Of a stretch of 8,190 bases of DNA, positions 1 through 8,190 are shown one piece after another. Source of the stretch: Acidobacteriota bacterium (GTDB lineage Bacteria; Acidobacteriota; Terriglobia; Terriglobales; Acidobacteriaceae); NCBI GenBank assembly GCA_021779695.1, contig JAJYAE010000199.1:1-8190 (forward strand), given 5' to 3'. The first letter of the stretch is position 1; each line of letters begins with the position of its first letter. A program made the translations under genes and the position numbers. Under the pieces are notes generated by a model. The model made no database searches and was not told where the DNA came from. It was given only the letters and a program-made list of their open reading frames with translations.

Positions 1-122
1 TGACGGGCATTGAGAACGGCACGCTGCGCGGTCTCGGCTGGAACATGCTTACCGACAAGGAGACGCCTTTCGCGCTGGACCTGAAGACTGGGAGCGTGCT
101 CGCCGATGGTCCTGCGGCATAA
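1..122 (+). CDS. 3' end of an unassigned gene (partial)
   Basis: The frame that ends at the TAA of 120-122 is open back to the window edge and gives about 39 residues, beginning TGIENGTLRGLGWNMLTDKE and ending ADGPAA. The composition (Gly, Leu, charged residues, a tryptophan) and the GC-rich third positions look like real coding sequence. I cannot assign a family from this tail alone. A short GC palindrome (GCCGCGCGGC, 135-144) follows the stop, but it has no T-run, so I do not call it a terminator. Confidence 0.6.
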   Translation, partial: TGIENGTLRGLGWNMLTDKETPFALDLKTGSVLADGPAA

Positions 123-191
123 GTGCCGACTGCTGCCGCGCGGCGGCGCGTAATTCTCTGCAAACTTTCTGTGGAAAACGAAAATAAATAA

Positions 192-208
192 GGGGGGGGT
201 AGGGGGGG
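192..208 (+). repeat. G8-TA-G7 tract
   Basis: Eight G (192-199), then TA, then seven G (202-208). Each G-run can supply two G3 tracts, so the strand could in principle fold into a G-quadruplex. It directly precedes the heptanucleotide tandem repeat. Homopolymer runs like this are also prone to length change and sequencing error. Confidence 0.7.
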
Positions 209-209
209 C

Positions 210-258
210 AGCTTCTAGCTTCTAGCTTCTGGCTTCTGGCTTCTAGCTTCTAGCTCCC
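210..258 (+). repeat. heptanucleotide tandem repeat (AGCTTCT)n
   Basis: Seven head-to-tail 7-nt units start at 210: AGCTTCT three times, GGCTTCT twice, AGCTTCT once, and a degenerate last unit AGCTCCC. The array lies between genes and is not translated. Such an array can change copy number by slippage. It could serve as a strain-typing locus, but no function can be read from the sequence. Confidence 0.9.
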
Positions 259-292
259 AGCCGGGGTCGTGACTCGACGGAATCCTGCAGGG

Positions 293-341
293 ACCGGGGA
301 GATACCTGACATTTTGAACCGGGGACATGCCTGACACTTTT
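293..341 (+). repeat. pair of imperfect direct repeats, period 25
   Basis: Copy 1 (293-315) and copy 2 (318-341) share the core ACCGGGGA-N-AT-N-CCTGACA-N-TTT and differ at three internal bases. Tandem short repeats of this kind occur at the ends of some transposable elements, so this may be the scar of an element end. No transposase gene is present in the window, so that origin is inference. Confidence 0.65.
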
Positions 342-612
342 GCTGGGCTCTGGCTTTTCATGTATCCATTGTGCGCCGGGGCGGGGAAATGTTCTGCAAG
401 GCGGCGGCGGGTTTTGGGACGAGTGGAATGAATGGGTTAAGGATGTGATTGGGTGCGAGGGTGTTGACTTCGCGAATGACGGACGGCTGGGGCGGGCTGG
501 GATCGTTCTGGCTAGCCGACTTTTGGGGACCTATTTGCTGCCTCGATGAGTGACTTGGCGATTCGGCATCATCAGGCTCGACCGACGCGGAGTACAGCTT
601 CTCGGCAGACTC

Positions 613-1974
613 TCAGGCGTCGATTCGGCTCTTAGCTGCAATACCCTGCAGCATGCCGCGGAAAACGAACTGGTGGAAGGGGAAAACAGAGTACCAGTAG
701 GCACGGCCCAACAAGCCTACGGGGTCGAATGTGGCTGTTTGCCGGATCATAGAGCCAGTTGCATCACTCTCGACTTCGAACTCGAGCCAGGCGCGACCGG
801 GAAGCTTCATCTCCGCGGCGAGACGCAGACGCCGATCCGGCTCGATCGCCTCAACGCGCCAGAAGTCCACAGCATCGCCTACACGGAGCGATTCAGGATC
901 GCGACGACCGCGTCGAAGTCCGACGCCGCCAAACAGTATGTCTAACAGTCCGCGAAGCTGCCAAAGCCAGTTTGCATAATACCAACCGCTGGAACCACCG
1001 ATCCGTCGAATCGGGGCAAAAGCCTCCTTCGGCGAAACGCCCACGTGAATCGCCCGGGAATCGACCTTAAGATGCAGCCCATCCGCACTGATGGCTGACG
1101 CGATAGCTTCTCGAAACCCGCAAGGCCGAGTCTTGAACTGGCTCAGGGCAGTCTGGTCTTCCACGACTGTTTCGTGACGAATACTATCAATCAGTTTGCG
1201 GCCCACGCGGACGTAAAGAGGGGTGACCAGAGCAAGCCAGAGACTGGATAGGCGCGGCGTAAGGAACGGCACGGAAATCACAAGCCGTTTCAGTCCCCGT
1301 TGGCGAGCGTATTCCCTCATCAGACCGCCGTAGGACACCTGATCGGAGCCGCCTATTTCGAAAATCCTGCTTTCGGTCGGCGGCAGTTCCAGAGCCTCGA
1401 GCAAATAGGAGAGCAAATCGGCGATTGCGATAGGCTGAGCGGCAACGGTAACCCAGCGCGGCGCGATCATGACAGGAAGTCGTTCCACCAGAGCGCGGAT
1501 CATTTCGAAAGATAGGCTGCCTGAACCGATGACCACTGAGGCACGGAACTCGATGACCGGAACCCCCGTGGATTTGAGAATCTCGCCCACCTGTTGACGG
1601 CTGCGCAAATGTGCGGAGAGTTGGTCCGAGCTGTGGCCAAGACCGCCAAGATAGATGATTCTCGTAACCCCGGATTCCCGGGCGGCATTCGCGAAATTCT
1701 TTGCCGCGATTCGGTCTTGCCCCTCAAAGGATTGAGTCGAGCCCATTGAGTGAACAAGGTAATATGCAGTGTCAATTCCAGCCATCGCGGCGCGTATAGA
1801 TGCAGCATCTAGAACATCCCCCGCGACGACCTGCAACCCAGGGAGTCCCCTGGCCTCGAGTATCTTTGGACGCCGTGCGAGGCAGCGTACCGGGTAACCC
1901 GCGGCTAGCAGGGCCTTCAGCAATTCTCCACCCACGTACCCGGTTGCGCCGGCAATAAGAATTGGCAGCTTCAT
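613..1974 (-). CDS. NAD(P)-binding SDR-family protein with DUF2867 domain (YbjT-like)
   Basis: The 453-aa product is an atypical short-chain dehydrogenase/epimerase. A Rossmann fold opens with the dinucleotide-binding motif GATGYVGG at residues 9-16, followed by the family segments YLVHSMG (about 72) and YLGGLG (about 109). The C-terminal part from about residue 330 (GWYYANWLWQLRG onward, with DFWRVEAIEP and YWYSVFPFHQFVF) matches the DUF2867 domain. Length and domain order fit Escherichia coli YbjT and its relatives. The substrate is unknown; quinone or sugar-nucleotide substrates are only guesses. It is the last gene of a leftward operon: its ATG at 1974 overlaps the TGA of the SRPBCC gene as ATGA (1971-1974), which fixes the start and implies translational coupling. 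No signal peptide is visible, so the product is probably cytoplasmic or loosely membrane-associated. Confidence 0.9.
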   Translation of the reverse strand: MKLPILIAGATGYVGGELLKALLAAGYPVRCLARRPKILEARGLPGLQVVAGDVLDAASIRAAMAGIDTAYYLVHSMGSTQSFEGQDRIAAKNFANAARESGVTRIIYLGGLGHSSDQLSAHLRSRQQVGEILKSTGVPVIEFRASVVIGSGSLSFEMIRALVERLPVMIAPRWVTVAAQPIAIADLLSYLLEALELPPTESRIFEIGGSDQVSYGGLMREYARQRGLKRLVISVPFLTPRLSSLWLALVTPLYVRVGRKLIDSIRHETVVEDQTALSQFKTRPCGFREAIASAISADGLHLKVDSRAIHVGVSPKEAFAPIRRIGGSSGWYYANWLWQLRGLLDILFGGVGLRRGRRDPESLRVGDAVDFWRVEAIEPDRRLRLAAEMKLPGRAWLEFEVESDATGSMIRQTATFDPVGLLGRAYWYSVFPFHQFVFRGMLQGIAAKSRIDA

Positions 1975-2450
1975 GCCACTCTACCCCTCGTTCTCCCAAA
2001 CACCTCCTCAATACATTGACGCCGGTATTCAAATATCCGCCGCACATCACTGCGTACCTTCAACACGTGAGCAATCTGTCCGAGGACGCCGAAAGGCAGC
2101 ATGTACCTAACGACATCGATCATTCGTGTCTGGTCGCCGTGCGCCTGAAAGATGTGCGTATGATGCCACAGTCTGTAAGGTCCCGATCTCTGCACGTCTA
2201 CAAAACGATGGGGAGGATTCCACCTACGGATCTCGGTTCGCCAGCCGAAAGGTATTTGATGCAGGCGGAGATGATAACTAATCTCAGTGCCCTCCGAAAT
2301 GGAGCTGGAGCTCACGGAGAGTATCTTGAAACCCAACCACGGAGGCGTGATGTCCTCCAGATTGCGAGCGTCTGCAAAGAACGCGAATACCTCTTCGACG
2401 GGTCGCGAGATCCACTGTTCTTGTCGAAGGGTATGGAACTTGAAGCTCAT
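1971..2450 (-). CDS. SRPBCC-family ligand-binding protein
   Basis: This 159-aa protein has the START/Bet v1-like (SRPBCC) pattern of COG4276-type proteins: an early VEEVFAFFADARNLEDITPP helix, then GTEISYHLRLHQIPFGW, a WNPPHRFVDVQ strand, GPYRLWHHTH, DVVRYMLPFGVLG, and a closing amphipathic helix IFEYRRQCIEEVF. The fold makes a hydrophobic pocket; the ligand cannot be read from sequence. The gene is coupled by ATGA overlaps on both sides, with the membrane-protein gene upstream (2447-2450) and the SDR gene downstream (1971-1974). A binding protein next to an oxidoreductase suggests they act on the same hydrophobic small molecule, but this is inference. Long open frames on the opposite strand here are shadows. 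Confidence 0.88.
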   Translation of the reverse strand: MSFKFHTLRQEQWISRPVEEVFAFFADARNLEDITPPWLGFKILSVSSSSISEGTEISYHLRLHQIPFGWRTEIRRWNPPHRFVDVQRSGPYRLWHHTHIFQAHGDQTRMIDVVRYMLPFGVLGQIAHVLKVRSDVRRIFEYRRQCIEEVFGRTRGRVA

Positions 2451-2755
2451 ACTTGCTTTTCACCAGTGCCCGTCATAGCTTTGTTGGAAATACATGCCGA
2501 TGTGCCGACGCTATTCTCAGGTTCCAGGCGCCACAAATGCAGCGTAGAGATTTCGATGTATAAGCGACTCAGCCTTGCGACCAGTAGAAGGACCACTCCA
2601 AGAGCTGCGGCAATTCCACCGAGATAAGCCCATTGAATGTGCCCTGTCATGAAGCTTCCCGGCAGCACATTGATCCCCTGCAGAACCCAGATAATTCCAA
2701 GAGCGATAAGTAGAACAGCAACCACGCGAAGAACGAACCTTATTGATTGACTCAT
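2447..2755 (-). CDS. small inner-membrane protein, first gene of the operon
   Basis: I place the start at the ATG of 2755, giving 102 residues from MSQSIRFVLR. It lies in the right window after a GAGGA stretch, and the open sequence further upstream (to 2878) does not resemble protein. Residues 7-25 (FVLRVVAVLLIALGIIWVL) and about 43-61 (the AYLGG to LLLVA stretch) are two membrane segments joined by QGINVLPGSFMTGHIQW, a loop I recognise from a common family of uncharacterised small proteins of about 65 residues. The roughly 40-residue tail after the second helix is unusual for that family and may be a relic of a lost stop codon. The TGA overlaps the SRPBCC start as ATGA. Its function is unknown. 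Confidence 0.72.
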   Translation of the reverse strand: MSQSIRFVLRVVAVLLIALGIIWVLQGINVLPGSFMTGHIQWAYLGGIAAALGVVLLLVARLSRLYIEISTLHLWRLEPENSVGTSACISNKAMTGTGEKQV

Positions 2756-3083
2756 TCTCTCTGTCCTCGACAATGCCCTCTCTACCGGATTCGTATCCGG
2801 CCGCAGAGGATTCAATTGGAGCTCTTTCGTCAGCGCCGAACCGCACAAAATGTGACGGAATTGTTCATCGCATGACAATCAGACAAGCATCGGCAATTGA
2901 TGAACATTTTCAAGCAGCACCATTGCGGACCCAGCCACGGATTCATTCAATCCGCACAGACATTAATGCAAGCGGAGGCGCATCAGGTCGATCAAGCCGT
3001 TGATCCGGCCAATCGCCGACTGATCAGTAATTCGCAAAAGTAAGCTCTGCGTTCATTCGCCGACTCATACGTCCTGTCTACCC
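2756..3083. other. intergenic region between divergent transcription units
   Basis: These 328 bases separate the leftward operon (first ATG at 2755) from the rightward defence-type cluster (3084). Both units probably need promoters here, but I find no pair close to the sigma-70 consensus on either strand. Two symmetrical sites near the right end are listed separately and may be operators. An open frame at 2743-3003 on the plus strand has no coding character. Confidence 0.5.
2990..3028. promoter_or_regulatory. possible operator: GATCAA inverted repeat and a 10-bp palindrome
   Basis: GATCAA (2990-2995) and TTGATC (3000-3005) form a 6-bp inverted repeat around GCCG. Fourteen bases further on lies ACTGATCAGT (3019-3028), a perfect 10-bp palindrome. 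Both share the GATCA core and lie between divergent units, as repressor sites often do. No regulator gene is adjacent, and short palindromes can arise by chance. Confidence 0.3.
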
Positions 3084-3473
3084 GTGGCGTCCAGTACCGG
3101 AGGTGGGCCATCGACGCCCACACTTGACCCAACATTGCCCGCAACAGTCAGTGGCAAGGGATTTTCCACGCTGATTACCCGTTCCGCTACATATCAGTTT
3201 CTGTCAAAACTCCCAAATGACGCGCGGCTTCAAAAGGTCCAGGCCAAGGTTTCACTGGCTGCTACTGATACCACGGTGACTCTGACCTGGGATGCCAAGA
3301 CTCAGCTCGCCCCAGCGCAAGTCCGCGAGGCGTTCGAATTCCTAGATAAACAGGTAGAAGATGGCGAATGGTGGCTGCGTTTCGACCAACTACACTTCAC
3401 GACTGGCCAGTCTCTGCTACAGTGGCAGGTCGACGCCAGCATCAAAGTAGATCCGGGGCAAATCAGCCAATGA
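3084..3473 (+). CDS. defence-cluster-associated protein, 129 aa, possible C-terminal relic of a larger protein
   Basis: The frame reads 129 residues from a GTG at 3084. The first 27 or so are a Gly/Ser/Thr/Pro linker, followed by a compact domain with a strand-rich middle (VQAKVSLAATDTTVTLTWDA), a helix (PAQVREAFEFLDKQVEDGEWW) and further strands (LLQWQVDASIKVD). The GTG has no Shine-Dalgarno, and the frame stays open upstream to a TGA at 3021-3023 without an ATG. A linker at the very start and a weak start suggest the C-terminal piece of a larger protein. One candidate is DUF499, whose family often ends in a domain of this sort and neighbours DUF3780. The TGA overlaps the DUF3780 start (ATGA, 3470-3473), so the two were co-translated. 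I do not recognise the domain with certainty. Confidence 0.6.
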   Translation: MASSTGGGPSTPTLDPTLPATVSGKGFSTLITRSATYQFLSKLPNDARLQKVQAKVSLAATDTTVTLTWDAKTQLAPAQVREAFEFLDKQVEDGEWWLRFDQLHFTTGQSLLQWQVDASIKVDPGQISQ

Positions 3474-4264
3474 GTGCACAGGCAGTTCACGATTTCGGAC
3501 GAGTGGATGAGAAGGGCGACGCCTTTGAATTCATCATCGGCGCACTTGGCGGTGACTGCCGCCTCATCGCAGTCCTCCAAACAGAGCGGGGGCCTCGCCG
3601 CACCGAAGTAGCGGTCATTTCGACCGAACTGTGGACTGCTGTCTCTGCTGCTGTTGTGAGAGAGCTTTCCACGGAGATGGACGAAACGGAACGCGAGAAG
3701 AAGGCGCCTAGCCTAGAACCTGGTCTCAATCGGATTAGCCCTCTTGTTGGTCGAGAGCTTGGCGTTTTGCTGATTGTCTTGATGGAGGCTGGTGCAGCGG
3801 AACGAGTAAGCGCACTGGTTCACGCTTGGCGGGAGCTTGCACGGGAGGAGCGCTGGTGGCTTTATTCCAAGGCCACCGCGCCCGGTCAACGGGTTGGAGT
3901 TGGTTGGCGAAAGGCCTTGTTTCACGCATTGAGTGAGACCTCAGACACTCGTGTTGCGCCGCCAACCGAGGCTAAAAAAAAACTCTCTGGGAGCATCGCG
4001 AGTCCCTCTTCGCAGAAGCAAGCGACCAAAGCCTTGCCACAGAACCCCCGCCGAGCAGTTTCCCGGCCAACCTCGAGCCAACAGCAACAGCCCAAGAGGA
4101 AACAATCAACATCGCAAAAGCCGGCGGCGAAGACCAAGCCATCCAAGCCCAGCCGAGCGGTCACGCCGACAGCCCCAAGCCGCCAGCAGAAGCCCAAGAA
4201 GCAGCAACTAAGAGCCGTCCCTCCAGGCGCAAAGCACAGCAAGCTCAGGAAGACGACCAGATGA
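3470..4264 (+). CDS. DUF3780 domain protein (defence-island associated) with a basic low-complexity tail
   Basis: The start is the ATG at 3470 (MSAQAVHDFGRV), coupled by ATGA to the preceding gene; an open extension back to 3368 is a shadow. Residues 1-155 fit the DUF3780 pattern: TELWTAVSAAVVREL (52-66), GLNRISPLVGRELGVL (85-100), then EERWWLYSKATAPGQ (126-140) and VGWRKALFHALSE (144-156). DUF3780 has no known activity but sits beside DUF1156 methyltransferases and DUF499 ATPases in defence islands. Residues 172-264 are a Lys/Pro/Gln/Ser-rich tail that should be disordered and could bind nucleic acid. The tail begins right after nine adenines (3974-3982). A one-base slip there moves to another open frame ending QMRLF at 4275, so the C-terminus shown is uncertain. 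The domain call is confident; the tail is not. Confidence 0.82.
   Translation: MSAQAVHDFGRVDEKGDAFEFIIGALGGDCRLIAVLQTERGPRRTEVAVISTELWTAVSAAVVRELSTEMDETEREKKAPSLEPGLNRISPLVGRELGVLLIVLMEAGAAERVSALVHAWRELAREERWWLYSKATAPGQRVGVGWRKALFHALSETSDTRVAPPTEAKKKLSGSIASPSSQKQATKALPQNPRRAVSRPTSSQQQQPKRKQSTSQKPAAKTKPSKPSRAVTPTAPSRQQKPKKQQLRAVPPGAKHSKLRKTTR
3974..3982 (+). other. A9 slippage-prone run in the DUF3780 gene
   Basis: Nine adenines encode Lys169-Lys171 as in-frame AAA AAA AAA. Runs of this length cause transcriptional slippage, and the run contains the heptamer A AAA AAA used in some -1 ribosomal frameshifts. A net -1 shift (or one extra A in the genome) continues as TLWEHRESLFAEASDQ and stays open for about 97 codons to the TAA at 4273-4275, ending QMRLF. 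Confidence 0.6.
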
Positions 4265-4276
4265 GGCTCTTTTAAG

Positions 4277-5158
4277 ATGACAGCCAAGACTCTTCTCGAA
4301 GTCCAGTTTCCCATCGGCCCTCTCTCGCTGGAAAGCTACAAAGAGCGAGATGCCAAAGGAGCGAAAGTTTTAGCTTCGCTCGGCAAGTGGTGGGGCGCAA
4401 AGCCACTGGTGCTCGTTCGCGCCATTGTTATTGGTGCCGTGTTCCCGGCCTCGGACGATCCAGAACGCTGGCCGGATGATCTCGACATATTCCTCAAAGT
4501 GATGTGTATGGACAACGCCGGTATGTGGAAGCGGAAGACAGAAGCCCTTCCGGCCAACCTGTGTTTCCCGGAGGCTAATTATAGGGAGCGCAACGAGCTA
4601 TTTAACGATGACAGCGAGAGCTGGAAGCGCGGCGCACCAGCCGATATGCGGAGTGCTCTGGAGAAGCGAGTTTTTTACACTCTCGGGCACACAGACCAGC
4701 GGGAGTACTGCTGCAGGGTTGAAGAAATTGACGGTCCCCCAAAAGAATCCTGGACTGAGATCAATGCTTACCTCGGGACATCGGCAAATACCTTGGCGGA
4801 ATTGGTTCAGCAACTCTCTCAACAACGATTTGGAACCCATTTGAAGGTTGGTGATGCCTTTTGTGGGATGGGTTCGATTCCGTTTGAAGCAGCTGAATTG
4901 GGGTGCGATGTCTACGCCTCTGATTTGAATCCGGTCGCGTGCCTACTTACGTGGGGCGCTCTGAATCTAATTGGAGGCTCAGACGAGTTTCGTGCGCGCG
5001 TACACCAGGCACAGCGTGAGGTTTACAACGAGGTTGACCGCTGGCTTCTTAAGGAAGGCCTCGAAACGAGTGAAGAGGGTTGGAGAGCTGAGGCCTATCT
5101 CTACTGTGTCGAAATGGTTGTGCCTGAATGGGATGGCTGGAGAATATCCGTTGATTGA
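4277..5158 (+). CDS. DUF1156 DNA methyltransferase, truncated N-terminal third
   Basis: This is the N-terminus of an adenine-specific DNA methyltransferase of the DUF1156/COG1743 kind. The signature FPIGPLSLESYKER is at residues 11-24, GKWWGAKPLVLVRA at 36-49, and the S-adenosylmethionine-binding motif GDAFCGMGSIPFEAAELG at 192-209. DLNPVACLLTWGALN follows at 216-230 and WRAEAYLYCVE near 272. Family members are usually some 900 residues or more, but this frame stops at 293, just after VPEWDGWRI, with a short unrelated SVD end. The catalytic NPPY/DPPY motif lies further on in the family and is missing, so methylation activity is not expected. The start follows the DUF3780 stop by 12 bases, with GAGG about 10 bases upstream. 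It is best regarded as a broken gene in the same transcription unit as DUF3780. Which bases the family modified cannot be read here. Confidence 0.85.
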   Translation: MTAKTLLEVQFPIGPLSLESYKERDAKGAKVLASLGKWWGAKPLVLVRAIVIGAVFPASDDPERWPDDLDIFLKVMCMDNAGMWKRKTEALPANLCFPEANYRERNELFNDDSESWKRGAPADMRSALEKRVFYTLGHTDQREYCCRVEEIDGPPKESWTEINAYLGTSANTLAELVQQLSQQRFGTHLKVGDAFCGMGSIPFEAAELGCDVYASDLNPVACLLTWGALNLIGGSDEFRARVHQAQREVYNEVDRWLLKEGLETSEEGWRAEAYLYCVEMVVPEWDGWRISVD

Positions 5159-5230
5159 TGAGGAGAAGGGCGAGTCAATTCTCATTCCTACGCCGTTGCT
5201 TGACAGCTACATCAATGACAAAACCGGTCA
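5146..5230 (+). pseudogene. out-of-frame continuation after the DUF1156 stop
   Basis: Skipping one base near 5145 restores an open frame: WRI then PLIDEEKGESILIPTPLLDS, and so on until the sequence becomes antisense to the DUF499 fragment at about 5228. The WRI-P-L join is what the DUF1156 family has after PEWDGW, so a single inserted base may have caused the premature stop. The residues after PL do not match my memory of the family, so a foreign join is also possible. Confidence 0.4.
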
Positions 5231-5941
5231 GAGAAGGTGCTTTGTCGAGAAGTGGAAAGGGTAGGAGACGAGAATCTCCTCGCGAATCTTGACGGTTGGG
5301 CGCTCCAGAATCCCACTGGCTGTGGCGAGCTCTGCTATATATGAGTCAGCAACTGCCCTCTTGTCTTTATCGGTGACCTCAATGGTCCTAAATAATCGCT
5401 TTCGCAAAATGGCGTAAAGCTCATCCTTCTGGTTGTCAACTGGCGCGATGGACTGTGCGCCCTTCGACATCTCATTGTTGACGCTCTGCATCGCGCCCCC
5501 AAGGATGTCATTGGATCGGAGGATCTTTGCCAACTCCTCCGCACCTTGTTCCCAGTCCTTCTGCAGATCGGCGATAACGAGCACGCAGCGACCACATTCC
5601 TTGTAGTCGCGCACTGCCCCGAATAGGGTTGTGAGTGCCAAGCCTGCTAGCGTTGCCGCACGGGTGCCTTCATCCTTTGTTCCTTGACTCGCTGCGTGGA
5701 CAAGGTAGAACGCCAATTCATCAAGTAAGATCAGAGCTGCGCGGTTCTTGAGAGCATCGCGCCACTCGGCCTCGGAAGGAGCCCGGTCGGCGGGAAAATC
5801 CACGCCGAGTTGCTTGCCAATTCCTACCCATACCTTCTGGTCAGTGGAGCGCCCCGTGAAGGAGGCCACTACATCGGCCTTGGCTTTAGGTAGTGCTTTG
5901 TGGAATGCGTACGCTGCACTGCGGGAGTTGGAGCGGAAGAA
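5228..5941 (-). pseudogene. DUF499 AAA+ ATPase, internal fragment, inverted
   Basis: On the minus strand the frame is open from 5941 down to a TGA at 5228-5230. Recognisable DUF499 (COG1483) sequence runs from about ALPKAKADVVASFTG through WRDALKNRAALILLDELAFY, which holds the Walker B motif (LILLDE), then KDWEQGAEELAKIL and LRKRLFRTIEVTD, and ends at ILVSYPFHFSTKHLL. A start could be forced at the GTG of 5867-5869 (213 aa). Intact family members have roughly a thousand residues. The Walker A loop, which lies upstream in the family, is missing, as is everything after the YPFHP-like segment, so no ATPase function is expected. DUF499 normally runs in the same direction as DUF1156; here the two face each other. 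The first 15 or so codons (5898-5941) look like antisense to the next fragment, so the homologous part probably begins near 5897. Confidence 0.8.
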
Positions 5942-6068
5942 CTATCTTTTGGCGATGACCCGCGGGGAGGATGACGAAATCACCGATATTGTGATCACGC
6001 CGGAACGGTTCCGCTGCCACGCTTGTCGACTCATCATCAGCAGTCGGGAGGACTGGGAAGTGTCTTAG
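5898..6068 (+). pseudogene. C-terminal fragment of an unknown protein with a CxxC pair
   Basis: The plus-strand frame from about 5898 reads WNAYAALRELERKNYLLAMT, then RGEDDEITDIVITPERF, and CHACRLIISSREDWEVS before the TAG at 6066-6068. Its composition is protein-like (a helix, a DEITDIVI strand, a Cys-x-x-Cys knuckle near the end). Upstream of 5898 the frame is antisense to DUF499 and has no start of its own. It is therefore probably the tail of a gene whose body was deleted. I cannot assign it; a lost member of the same defence cluster, such as its helicase, is one possibility. Confidence 0.5.
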
Positions 6069-6316
6069 ACAGATCCCGCTCTGAGTACGTGCTGAATGCT
6101 TCTGGATGGGCCGATGCCGCCTGGTCGGCGAACAGCACGTGAACTGCTTCCTGGTTGAAGAGGCTGTAGGGCTTCAGCCACTTAGGGCCGTTGGACCAGG
6201 TGACGCGCGGCCGCGAGAATGGGTCTGCCTCAACGACACGACCGAGTGCCGTCTCAGCGCCAATTTGCTTCGTCAGACGATCGTCACCGCCGCGGTACTC
6301 CACCCAGTCGCCGGCG
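6037..6316 (-). pseudogene. out-of-frame downstream half of the disrupted leftward gene
   Basis: The frame on the minus strand reads GDWVEYRGGDDRLTKQIGAE, then TALGRVVEADPFSRPRVTW and PKWLKPYSLFNQEAVHVLF, and stops at 6037. This looks like a small strand-rich, SH3-like domain. It has no start codon with a ribosome site; the only start option is the GTG at 6301-6303. It takes over exactly where the upstream frame loses protein character (about 6304-6330), so a one-base shift would join the two. The last dozen residues overlap the preceding plus-strand fragment and are probably junction sequence. Confidence 0.5.
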
Positions 6317-6737
6317 CTGAGAGCAGCATCTGCATCTGGCCGATCCTCGGGAGCAACTCGTCACGATAGCGCACTGCCAGTTTGCGCTCTTCACCGAGCA
6401 GATCGTCGGTAAGGTCGTGGATTTCCGAATCGAGGTTGTTGTATTCGGTTGCAAAACTCGCGACACATGTCGCGAGTTCGTCGACGGCGCCGGTTGGCTT
6501 GTCGGCCAATACTAGCGCGGTGGGCCGGGGAACATGGTCCAGACGATTCTGGCTGGACTGCTTTTCCTTCGTGGATTCGGCGATTGAATCACCCGGATTC
6601 CGGGCGAATCGCTGTTCCTGGTCGAACGTAATCTTTGTGGCTACTGGGTCGAGTGCTTCGAACCCGAACTCGACTCGCGCAGATTCTGCGCGAATTTGAT
6701 GTGGCACCGAATCGATATCCTCAGCAAGATGGCTCAT
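6273..6737 (-). CDS. unknown coiled-coil protein, island gene, frameshifted near its 3' end
   Basis: The 154-aa reading (MSHLAEDIDSVPHQIRAESA onward) starts at an ATG that overlaps the stop of the upstream 41-aa ORF as ATGA (6734-6737). The second half is a charged helix (ATEYNNLDSEIHDLTDDLLG, then ERKLAVRYRDELLPRIGQM) that may form a coiled coil. Similar helices occur in small proteins beside integrases in mobile islands, but I cannot name a family. The last 18 or so residues (APATGWSTAAVTIV) look like noise, and the real continuation is in another frame (see the downstream half). The product is probably non-functional or shortened. Confidence 0.55.
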   Translation of the reverse strand: MSHLAEDIDSVPHQIRAESARVEFGFEALDPVATKITFDQEQRFARNPGDSIAESTKEKQSSQNRLDHVPRPTALVLADKPTGAVDELATCVASFATEYNNLDSEIHDLTDDLLGEERKLAVRYRDELLPRIGQMQMLLSAPATGWSTAAVTIV

Positions 6738-6859
6738 ACTGCCTCCTCATCTCGATAAGGCTTCACGCGGTTGTTGGGATAGAACACCGCCTTGCAATAG
6801 CGCCACCCAAGGTCAGGCAGCTTGATGTATTTGTATAGTTGGACTTTACGGTTGGCCAT
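6734..6859 (-). pseudogene. integrase N-terminal stub, 41 aa
   Basis: This leftward ORF has an AGGAGA ribosome site well placed before the ATG at 6859. It reads MANRKVQLYKYIKLPDLGWR then YCKAVFYPNNRVKPYRDEEAV. The stretch from KVQLYKYIKL to YCKAVFYPNNRVKP resembles the first residues of tyrosine recombinases of integrated islands that I recall from Acidobacteria. The catalytic Arg, His and Tyr would lie some 200-350 residues further on and are absent, so recombination is impossible. The position, downstream of a tRNA 3' end, is where an island integrase belongs. Alternatively it is a small gene in its own right, coupled by ATGA to the next one; the good ribosome site leaves that open. Confidence 0.55.
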
Positions 6860-6922
6860 CTATGGTTCTCCTGAAACCTAATACTGGTTTTTTGGAGAAA
6901 CCTCAGGCTGTCCTTTGCAGAA

Positions 6923-6945
6923 TTGCTAGGAAGTTTGCTAGGAAG
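6923..6945 (-). repeat. tandem direct repeat TTGCTAGGAAG x2 upstream of the integrase stub
   Basis: TTGCTAGGAAG occurs at 6923-6933 and again at 6935-6945, period 12, a little over one helical turn. It lies between the integrase stub and the tRNA. Repeats in this position of tRNA-inserted elements are often arm-type sites for integrase or sites for an excision factor, but that role here is inference. Confidence 0.55.
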
Positions 6946-6957
6946 CAATCCTAATCT

Positions 6958-6990
6958 CTCGTAAACTTTTGAAATTCATAAATTTACGAG
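6958..6990 (-). other. 8-bp AT-rich inverted repeat just past the tRNA 3' end
   Basis: CTCGTAAA (6958-6965) pairs perfectly with TTTACGAG (6983-6990) around a 17-nt spacer that itself contains the palindrome TGAAATTCA. It begins 5 bases past the tRNA CCA end. It could be a weak transcription terminator for the tRNA or a binding site at the island attachment junction. There is no clean T-run, so I do not call it a terminator. Confidence 0.45.
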
Positions 6991-6995
6991 GAAAT

Positions 6996-7082
6996 TGGTG
7001 CCGAAGAAGGGACTCGAACCCCCACACCCTTGCGAGTACGTGGACCTGAACCACGCGCGTCTGCCAATTCCGCCACTTCGGC
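6996..7082 (-). tRNA. tRNA-Leu (anticodon CAG), CCA encoded
   Basis: The minus strand from 7082 folds as a class II tRNA: acceptor stem GCCGAAG (7076-7082) pairs with CTTCGGC (7000-7006), discriminator A, and CCA encoded at 6996-6998. The anticodon arm is GTGG-TTCAGGT-CCAC, placing CAG at the anticodon positions; a long variable arm and a GTTCGAGTC T-loop region follow. CAG reads CUG leucine codons. The gene appears complete. An integrase-like stub and island debris lie immediately past its 3' end, so this is the probable insertion site of the element. Confidence 0.95.
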
Positions 7083-7200
7083 ACGGGACACGTATCTGGC
7101 TGTAACTTTTTGCCAGACCGGCAGCATCTTTGAGTCTCGCAAATGCGGCCAGCCGTGTCAAATCTGCCTCACTCCCACCACCCTACTCCGCAGAAATCTC

Positions 7201-7230
7201 TTGACTTGCTCCTTCCGTTGACGGCATACT
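7201..7230 (+). promoter_or_regulatory. candidate sigma-70 promoter for the secreted-protein gene
   Basis: TTGACT (7201-7206) is five of six matches to the -35 box. CATACT (7225-7230) is four of six to the -10 box, at 18 bp spacing. If used, the transcript would have a leader of about 290 bases before the ATG at 7527, including the 11-bp hairpin. This is a pattern match only. Confidence 0.35.
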
Positions 7231-7397
7231 GCGCCCACTGCTGGTGCCAAACGGGCCGGCACATTCGAACGACTCTCCCCCTGAACTTAACTTCTCGCCT
7301 CAGGCAGTGGGTGGGGCTTGCTCCATCCCACGGCTGAGCTTGTGTGGCTGTGCACCGCACCGGTAAGAACGACCCGATGACGATGCCAATTCGATGG

Positions 7398-7441
7398 GCG
7401 CGAGCGCAGCGCTCTCCTCGAGCGCCAGGGTGCGCTCGCGC
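7398..7441 (+). other. GC-rich hairpin in the leader (11-bp stem)
   Basis: GCGCGAGCGCA (7398-7408) is the exact reverse complement of TGCGCTCGCGC (7431-7441), with 22 bases between. An alternative fold uses GAGCGC-A-GCGCTC (7402-7414). It lies about 85 bases before the start codon, leaves the ribosome site free and has no T-run. It may stabilise or regulate the transcript. Confidence 0.6.
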
Positions 7442-7526
7442 GGGCGAAGCAGATTCTGCGCTTCCAGGCACGATTGCCCGGCATACACAAGCGACAAACA
7501 AAGCACAAATCAACCCGGAGGAAAGT

Positions 7527-8190
7527 ATGTTTCATTTGCGCACATTCATGATCTGCCTTGGCTGTGCAACGCTTCTGGTTGCCGCCGCCCCTCGTCTGCG
7601 CTCGGAGGCTTCAGCAGACGCGCAGGCCGCGCTCAACAAAGACCTGCTCGGTAAAGAAGTCAAACCACTGATGGACATGCCTGCCTATAAAGAAGGCATC
7701 GACATCTATTACGTGGCGCCCAACGGCAAGCGCTCCGACGACCGCGGAATTGACCTTCAGGGCCTGACTAAGTGGCTCAAAGCCAAGGGCGTAGGCATCG
7801 AAAAGGGTGAGGACGTCATCATCACCAACGTCAAGGTCGATAGCGACAAGGTTGAGATTCACCTGGGCGGGGGCGGCGAGGGGCGTCGGGGGAGCAATCA
7901 CGCAAACAAGGTGAATGCAGGCTTCAAACGCGCCGGCGGTTCGCGCATCAACTTCCGCTACCAGGCGCCGGTGACGGACCTCGACCTGCAGCCGGCAATG
8001 TTCCTCAAGTTCATGTCGCGCATTCTGGATGTAAGTGAAATTGAGGGCGCGGTTGAAACCCAGCAGATGCCGGCAGACGACAAGGCCGCCATCGAGTCGC
8101 ACACCGTCATCCAGGGAATGACCTATCAGATGGTCATGTTGAGCTTCGGTGAGCCGGAGCAGAAGAAGATCGACGACAGCGCCGACAGCT
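7527..8190 (+). CDS. secreted protein of unknown function (partial, runs off the window)
   Basis: An ATG at 7527 preceded by CGGAGGAAAG (a strong Shine-Dalgarno) opens a frame with no stop to the window end, 221 codons. The N-terminus MFHLRTFMICLGCATLLVAA is a typical Sec signal peptide. Cleavage is plausible in the SEASADA region, so the product should be exported. The mature part starts with a helix (AQAALNKDLLGKEVKPLMDM), then YKEGIDIYYVAPNGKRSDDRG, GLTKWLKAKGVGIEKGEDVI, strands with a glycine patch IHLGGGGEGRRGSNHANK, and near the end VIQGMTYQMVMLSFGEPEQK. I recall similar uncharacterised proteins from Acidobacteria but know no function. The last segment resembles the SmpA/OmlA-like small outer-membrane fold (a GMTYQMV-LSFGEP pattern), which is only a suggestion. 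A long open frame on the opposite strand (7611-8102) is its shadow. Confidence 0.85.
   Translation, partial: MFHLRTFMICLGCATLLVAAAPRLRSEASADAQAALNKDLLGKEVKPLMDMPAYKEGIDIYYVAPNGKRSDDRGIDLQGLTKWLKAKGVGIEKGEDVIITNVKVDSDKVEIHLGGGGEGRRGSNHANKVNAGFKRAGGSRINFRYQAPVTDLDLQPAMFLKFMSRILDVSEIEGAVETQQMPADDKAAIESHTVIQGMTYQMVMLSFGEPEQKKIDDSADS

Follow-up and report, generated by a model that had tools for sequence, protein, structure and literature searches.

A most likely broken copy of a Type-2 BR system beside tRNA-Leu in an Acidobacteriaceae contig

Type-2 BR systems are DUF499-centred and BREX-related. In PMC12839542, DUF3780 is reported in 98% of Type-2 taxa, stand-alone DUF3780 is given as a mark of Type-2 BR, and a mechanism resembling restriction-modification is predicted. 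The Hma system (helicase, methyltransferase and ATPase) is described in the same paper as a renamed DUF499-centred system. Here we report an analysis of 8,190 nt from the Acidobacteriaceae assembly GCA_021779695.1 (contig JAJYAE010000199.1, forward strand, positions 1–8,190), referred to below as the window, in which DUF3780, DUF1156 and DUF499 are found together. Judged by sequence, these three families are components of Type-2 BR systems as described in PMC12839542, and the window most likely holds a recently broken, non-working copy of this known kind of system rather than a new system.

We consider it probable that the locus is what remains of a wrecked, horizontally acquired tRNA-Leu island which carried a Type-2 BR system and was broken by several illegitimate joins, with DUF3780 left as a bystander. 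The island would have inserted at the tRNA-Leu(CAG) 3′ end by means of a tyrosine integrase, bringing the defence system with it. Several illegitimate joins would then have broken it, giving seven junctions in about 3.7 kb and one inverted block. Their effect would have been the loss of the catalytic half of the methyltransferase, the Walker A region of the ATPase, nearly all of the integrase and, within the limits of the window, the helicase-nuclease. The remnant should not methylate, hydrolyse ATP or cut DNA, and therefore no restriction-like defence would be expected of it; we infer this loss of function, as we do the order and mechanism of the breakage.

Families of the window and their intact relatives

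The window proteins were compared with the profiles of Pfam, NCBIfam and PADLOC and with profiles built here, and tblastn was run against the loci described below. Pfam and NCBIfam profiles matched all three families, which bears out their co-occurrence as claimed in a preliminary description of this DNA. Each family passed its own Pfam cut-off and none reached the NCBIfam whole-protein cut-off; the NCBIfam models matching the three proteins bear the name "anti-phage-associated". DUF3780 matched PF12635 with an E-value of 1.6e-21 (77.3 bits, cut-off 27) and its NCBIfam model with 71.6 bits, under the equivalog cut-off of 200. The methyltransferase piece matched Pfam DUF1156 (E 1.8e-13), NCBIfam (E 1.7e-103, model positions 1–283 of 960) and the PADLOC models DUF1156_MTase (E 8.8e-78) and HmaB (E 3.3e-11, over the region of the S-adenosylmethionine, or SAM, motif). 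The middle piece of DUF499 matched Pfam with an E-value of 2.8e-10 and NCBIfam NF042962 with one of 1.9e-31 (model 114–319 of 1025). The open reading frame (ORF) at 3084–3473, which holds the RRM region of DUF499, matched NF042962 at 906–1025 of 1025 (E 3.7e-6) and our own profile with an E-value of 2.8e-25.

The query of the contig search was an alignment of DUF1156 N-termini (16 of at least 120 sequences, the window's own included). The comparison set consisted of 92 loci, namely the best 80 of 312 confirmed stretches on genome contigs and 12 from viral contigs; the locus of Candidatus Accumulibacter meliphilus (L001) served as the reference for residue numbering. All four genes were found in 70 of the 92 loci, and in all 70 they lay on one strand in the order DUF499, DUF3780, DUF1156 methyltransferase and HKD-helicase. 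In 61 loci the four genes were in order and each of the three large ones had 90% or more of its full length. DUF3780 was present in 85 loci and a DUF499 match in 82, while the best DUF499 frame was inverted in none of the 92. The closest intact systems (L001–L006) are mainly proteobacterial. Nine of the 12 loci from viral contigs had all four genes; these Type-2 BR-like clusters (L081–L086, L088, L089 and L091) are on IMG/VR contigs classed as viral. A phage origin of the window's methyltransferase was rejected, there being no match to it among 50,697 phage records.

The helicase of L001 contains PLDc_2, SNF2-related and Helicase_C domains. Across all window frames of at least 30 residues, no helicase profile matched at E ≤ 1, and tblastn gave a single 13-residue chance match (E 0.93). 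The methyltransferase piece has about 289 residues against 998 in L001, is 73–74% identical to L001, L002 and L004, and keeps the SAM motif. It had been described as lacking its catalytic motif, and this was confirmed: DPPY is at residue 595 in L001, whereas the piece stops at the equivalent of about residue 292, some 300 residues short.

The DUF499 ATPase is in three pieces: the RRM region, which keeps its place ahead of DUF3780, a scrap of 28 residues and an inverted block of residues ~103–326. The block is 73–79% identical to L001–L006 (74–79% to L001, L002 and L004), keeps Walker B and has lost Walker A (residue 78 in L001). The scrap, at about 5145–5228, corresponds to about residues 630–657 of the L001 ATPase, with tblastn identities of 56–63% over 30 residues and matches in L001–L005 (E 2e-6 to 9e-6). 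The RRM region is 59–66% identical to L001–L006 by tblastn, and 63–66% to L001, L002 and L004. The preliminary description, which saw the ATPase without both ends and an intact core in DUF3780 alone, thus stood in part. The N-terminus with Walker A is lost and DUF3780 is whole, but the C-terminal RRM region is present directly before DUF3780 and is likewise complete, as a separate ORF. Two of its details were corrected: the DUF499 block is opposite in orientation to DUF3780 and the methyltransferase, and the DUF499 match stops at about 5905, the sequence from 5907 to 6059 belonging to a different protein.

Breakage of the system and the state of DUF3780

Alignment to nine DUF499 proteins, to methyltransferases and to the loci placed seven junctions within 3.7 kb, at ~3081–3117, 5144–5146, 5229–5232, ~5906, ~6060, ~6305 and 6757. 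The breakage extends to the right as far as tRNA-Leu. No stop codon was found in the eight coding pieces. When 22 methyltransferases and 40 DUF3780s were compared at otherwise invariant columns, the window's methyltransferase piece had 0 of 63 changed and its DUF3780 had 2 of 74, against 0–3 in the relatives. As the pieces are open and show no signal of relaxed constraint, recent structural breakage is indicated rather than slow decay. The idea of a decayed antiviral cluster therefore holds as regards a broken cluster with intact versions elsewhere, but not as regards slow decay. The breakage looks recent by the lack of stops, the unrelaxed columns and the near-identical island end found in another genome (see below).

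The short form of the methyltransferase is not conserved in the comparison set. In 79 of the loci its frame lies clear of the edge, and 75 of these frames are full length; the other 13 run into the edge. None of the 79 ended at model positions 270–310, where the window's piece breaks, and a conserved reduced system was rejected on this ground. Frames broken or split at other places were seen in L016, L038, L050 and L087.

The main rival explanation is that the joins are artefacts of amplification or assembly, for example chimeras of multiple displacement amplification, and that the living organism has a more complete system. We regard this as unlikely, although several features would suit it. 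The pieces at the internal joins derive from one stretch of about 4.5 kb of the intact operon, out of order and with one inverted, and the two joins inside the system (5144–5146 and 5229–5232) share an estimated 0–2 bp as judged from protein alignments. The pieces show no point decay, and an inverted piece with a deletion and few shared bases resembles the amplification chimeras dealt with in PMC1855051. However, at five of the seven joins at least one side is foreign to the BR system, and to produce seven joins in 3.7 kb a single molecule would have had to undergo many events and then become the dominant one in the assembly. The same truncated proteins (P0001, P0121 and P0241) also occur, each as one sequence, on five contigs of uncertain independence, the longest being 11,088. 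Misassembly at a shared word is disfavoured because 0–2 shared bases would be fewer than an assembler's word length; the 12-base repeats within the window were left out as a test of misassembly, since a misjoin at a shared word leaves a single copy.

The ATG of DUF3780 overlaps the DUF499 stop, the same as in L001. Homologues of equal length are 83–84% identical to it, and its identity to L001, L002 and L004 is 50–55%. Its AlphaFold2 model is confident for about residues 1–160 (block-mean predicted local distance difference test, pLDDT, 76–96) and has a low-confidence, disordered-looking tail at about residues 159–264. The model had no structural match at E ≤ 0.001 in PDB or BFVD (viral models), and a weak match of the protein to Pfam DUF7680 (E 0.019) was below the cut-off. 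Plasmid relatives were found in 12 of 72,556 records, none of them covering 80% of the query.

A functional reduced system could be imagined, with DUF3780, perhaps together with the RRM piece of DUF499, retained and expressed; it might, for instance, read modified DNA or serve as a decoy. The full length of DUF3780, its confident fold over about residues 1–158, the 72 of 74 invariant columns kept and the complete RRM region, overlapping the DUF3780 start as in L001, would all agree with this reading, which we nevertheless judge to be very improbable. Because the cut methyltransferase piece is equally unrelaxed, the intactness of DUF3780 is no evidence of selective retention; such conservation shows recency, not selection. 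In a context sample of 248 genomes (the class of G003, whose copy is L001), DUF3780 was present in six. DUF499 adjoins it in all six, so that a stand-alone DUF3780 would be unusual, and a methyltransferase is near it in five; the contig of the sixth (L160) stops 3.2 kb further along. An orphan DUF3780 as a known unit is thus unsupported, within this small sample. No sigma-70-like promoter was found in 2800–7000 against 2.0 expected, although acidobacterial promoters may differ. None of the 79 methyltransferase frames clear of an edge is cut at the place of the window's break, and no observation positively supports a DUF3780 that works on its own. DUF3780 is probably a bystander, presumably without a role, that erosion has not yet reached.

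One of the six genomes (G965, locus L161) has DUF499 over four consecutive frames at 6509–10275 (model 1–229, 236–869, 869–924 and 915–1032). Together these span the whole model, and DUF3780 and a full-length methyltransferase frame adjoin them; the split is a small-scale break or the result of sequencing errors.

Integrase, tRNA-Leu and flanks

Over codons 1–34 the window's integrase is 97% identical to that of L144 (acidobacterium G660) and 74% to that of L146. The frame runs on in both, but the window's copy breaks off at codon 34. The full frame of L146 matches PF00589 (E 1.3e-22, residues 245–391), a domain absent from the window's cut integrase; no Pfam match was obtained for L144, whose frame continues past the end of its contig. 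At the DNA level the window and L144 are 94% identical over 426 bp with an abrupt start at 6758, and from there through tRNA-Leu(CAG) they differ by a single base. The integrase start is 136 bp from tRNA-Leu(CAG) in both. L145–L147 (G721, G416 and G668) are more distant than L144, with 72–85% DNA identity over the same integrase-tRNA stretch. In our acidobacterial sample of 398 genomes of the acidobacterial family, an integrase match was found in 24, and the best five all adjoin a tRNA-Leu (four CAG, one GAG). Over 6758–7090 the island ends of L144 and the window are near-identical, while the chromosomal DNA beyond the tRNA differs, which points to a tRNA-Leu element having been transferred recently.

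The methyltransferase piece had a match (E ≤ 0.001) in 19 of the 398 genomes, covering at most 94 query residues among the matches listed. G660, by its handle within the same sample, is outside these 19. Longer alignments of 25–26% identity in L135 and L139 show that distant DUF1156-type methyltransferases occur in the family. The 398 genomes yielded no close relative of the window's methyltransferase; with distant matches only, the system looks imported, and its best relatives are mainly proteobacterial. Full-length syntenic clusters in sister genomes, which had been proposed as support for loss, were not found there either, so the loss is read from other taxa and not from a sister lineage. 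It may also be supposed that a second complete copy elsewhere uses this DUF3780, or that what the window shows is the eroded margin of a larger island that still works. The jump from methyltransferase to DUF499 at 5144–5146 runs backwards in operon order and would be easiest with former tandem copies. The absence of a close methyltransferase from the family genomes speaks indirectly against this supposition, to which we give hardly any credence.

Both flanks are acidobacterial by their sequence matches. The SDR/DUF2867 protein of the left flank is 79% identical to its match in G177 and 78% to that in G399, and some match was present in 363 of 396 genomes. Of ten genomes from the genus of G453, five match the right flank at 73–74% DNA identity. 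The left-flank gene and tRNA-Leu are on separate contigs in G177 and G399, and likewise the right-flank gene in G453.

Several points weigh against the reading of a wrecked tRNA-Leu island. The 3′ end of the tRNA occurs once within the window, with up to three mismatches allowed, although the far border of the island may lie outside. No empty or intact copy of the island was found in sister genomes. Outside the window, to its left on the contig, there may be a helicase or another copy; the five contigs with the truncated proteins may not be independent; and the 28-residue scrap was not listed by a broad DUF499 profile at E ≤ 1. Lastly, seven joins without point decay are odd for natural erosion and fit a single event or an artefact better. 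One such event would be shattering by replicative template switching soon after arrival, with DUF3780 left whole. It is suggested by pieces of 84 to ~2,000 bp in both orientations and by the estimated 0–2 bp shared at the two resolved joins, and we hold it to be distinctly doubtful.

Among the minor pieces, the one at 5907–6059 is 78% and 71% identical to open frames in L149 and L150 (DNA 86% over 111 bp), and its parent protein of ~118 residues was found in 3 of the 398 genomes. The family at 6306–6737 has six homologues besides the window's, with members of 129–256 residues. For 6062–6303 there was no Pfam match and no relative in 30 acidobacterial genomes, in a search without a positive control. 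Left of the system, genes for an SDR/NmrA-DUF2867 protein, a polyketide-cyclase-like protein and a small uncharacterised protein stand in a row on the minus strand (613–2878). The pairing of the first two is preserved in G399, with 73% DNA identity over 635–2420. Left of the SDR gene are a 7-base tandem repeat of 6.6 copies (210–255) and two copies of a unit with a 25-base period (293–342), which presumably resembles the dispersed repeat motifs of such genomes.

Table 1. Pieces of the system and neighbouring features in the window
Feature	Position	Strand	Evidence
DUF499 ATPase, C-terminal RRM region, last ~120 residues	3105..3470	+	ORF 3084-3473; NF042962, tblastn, alignment
DUF3780, complete, 264 residues	3470..4264	+	PF12635; same-length homologues
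DUF1156 N6-adenine methyltransferase, N-terminal ~289 residues	4277..5145	+	profiles; ORF 4277-5158
DUF499 scrap, 28 residues, other reading frame	5145..5228	+	tblastn, alignment
DUF499 residues ~103-326 (L001 numbering), inverted	5231..5905	-	NF042962, alignment; profile match 5228-5869
51-residue internal piece of ~118-residue acidobacterial protein	5907..6059	+	homologues in L149, L150
Open piece between two junctions	6062..6303	-	no relatives found
N-terminal part of uncharacterised protein family, cut after about residue 140	6306..6737	-	ORF 6273-6737; 6 homologues
Tyrosine-recombinase integrase, codons 1-34	6758..6859	-	match to L144, L146
tRNA-Leu(CAG), presumed integration site	6996..7082	-	ARAGORN, Rfam

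Implications and comparison with known systems

Our analysis shows that matches to the family names DUF3780, DUF1156 and DUF499 can flag a defence system that is most likely unable to work, and therefore automated counts of defence systems ought to include a test of integrity. Moreover, in Acidobacteriota a Type-2 BR system is now seen next to a tRNA-Leu integrative element, and no close relative of its methyltransferase turned up in the family sample of 398 genomes. If the scrambling is real and recent, the window would capture the disabling of an incoming restriction-like system. A single shattering event, if it took place, would make it a fresh case of an acquired restriction-like system being catastrophically inactivated, perhaps owing to the cost of a set of DUF499, methyltransferase and helicase to which host methylation is not matched. 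Systems of this kind are already known, and this instance is of modest interest.

Like Type-2 BR, the window has the C-terminal RRM region of DUF499 (known from sequence), a stand-alone DUF3780 and a DUF1156 N6-methyltransferase, and the gene order is kept over this RRM-DUF3780-methyltransferase stretch. Unlike Type-2 BR, it has no helicase, its methyltransferase is cut before DPPY, and its ATPase is tripartite, partly inverted and without Walker A. L001 and the proteobacterial L002 and L004, which are among the closest intact homologues, have the four genes complete, unlike the window. They also lack the tRNA-Leu found in the window; a tRNA-Ser is present in L001 and L002 and none in L004. 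The two tRNA-Ser genes (L001 16147–16240, L002 17161–17253) are 0.4–1.5 kb from the helicase end and may mark another island site. As regards Hma, the match of PADLOC HmaB to the SAM-motif region of the window's methyltransferase is a likeness, but the DUF1156_MTase model scores far better and the window has a stand-alone DUF3780, the mark of Type-2 BR given in PMC12839542.

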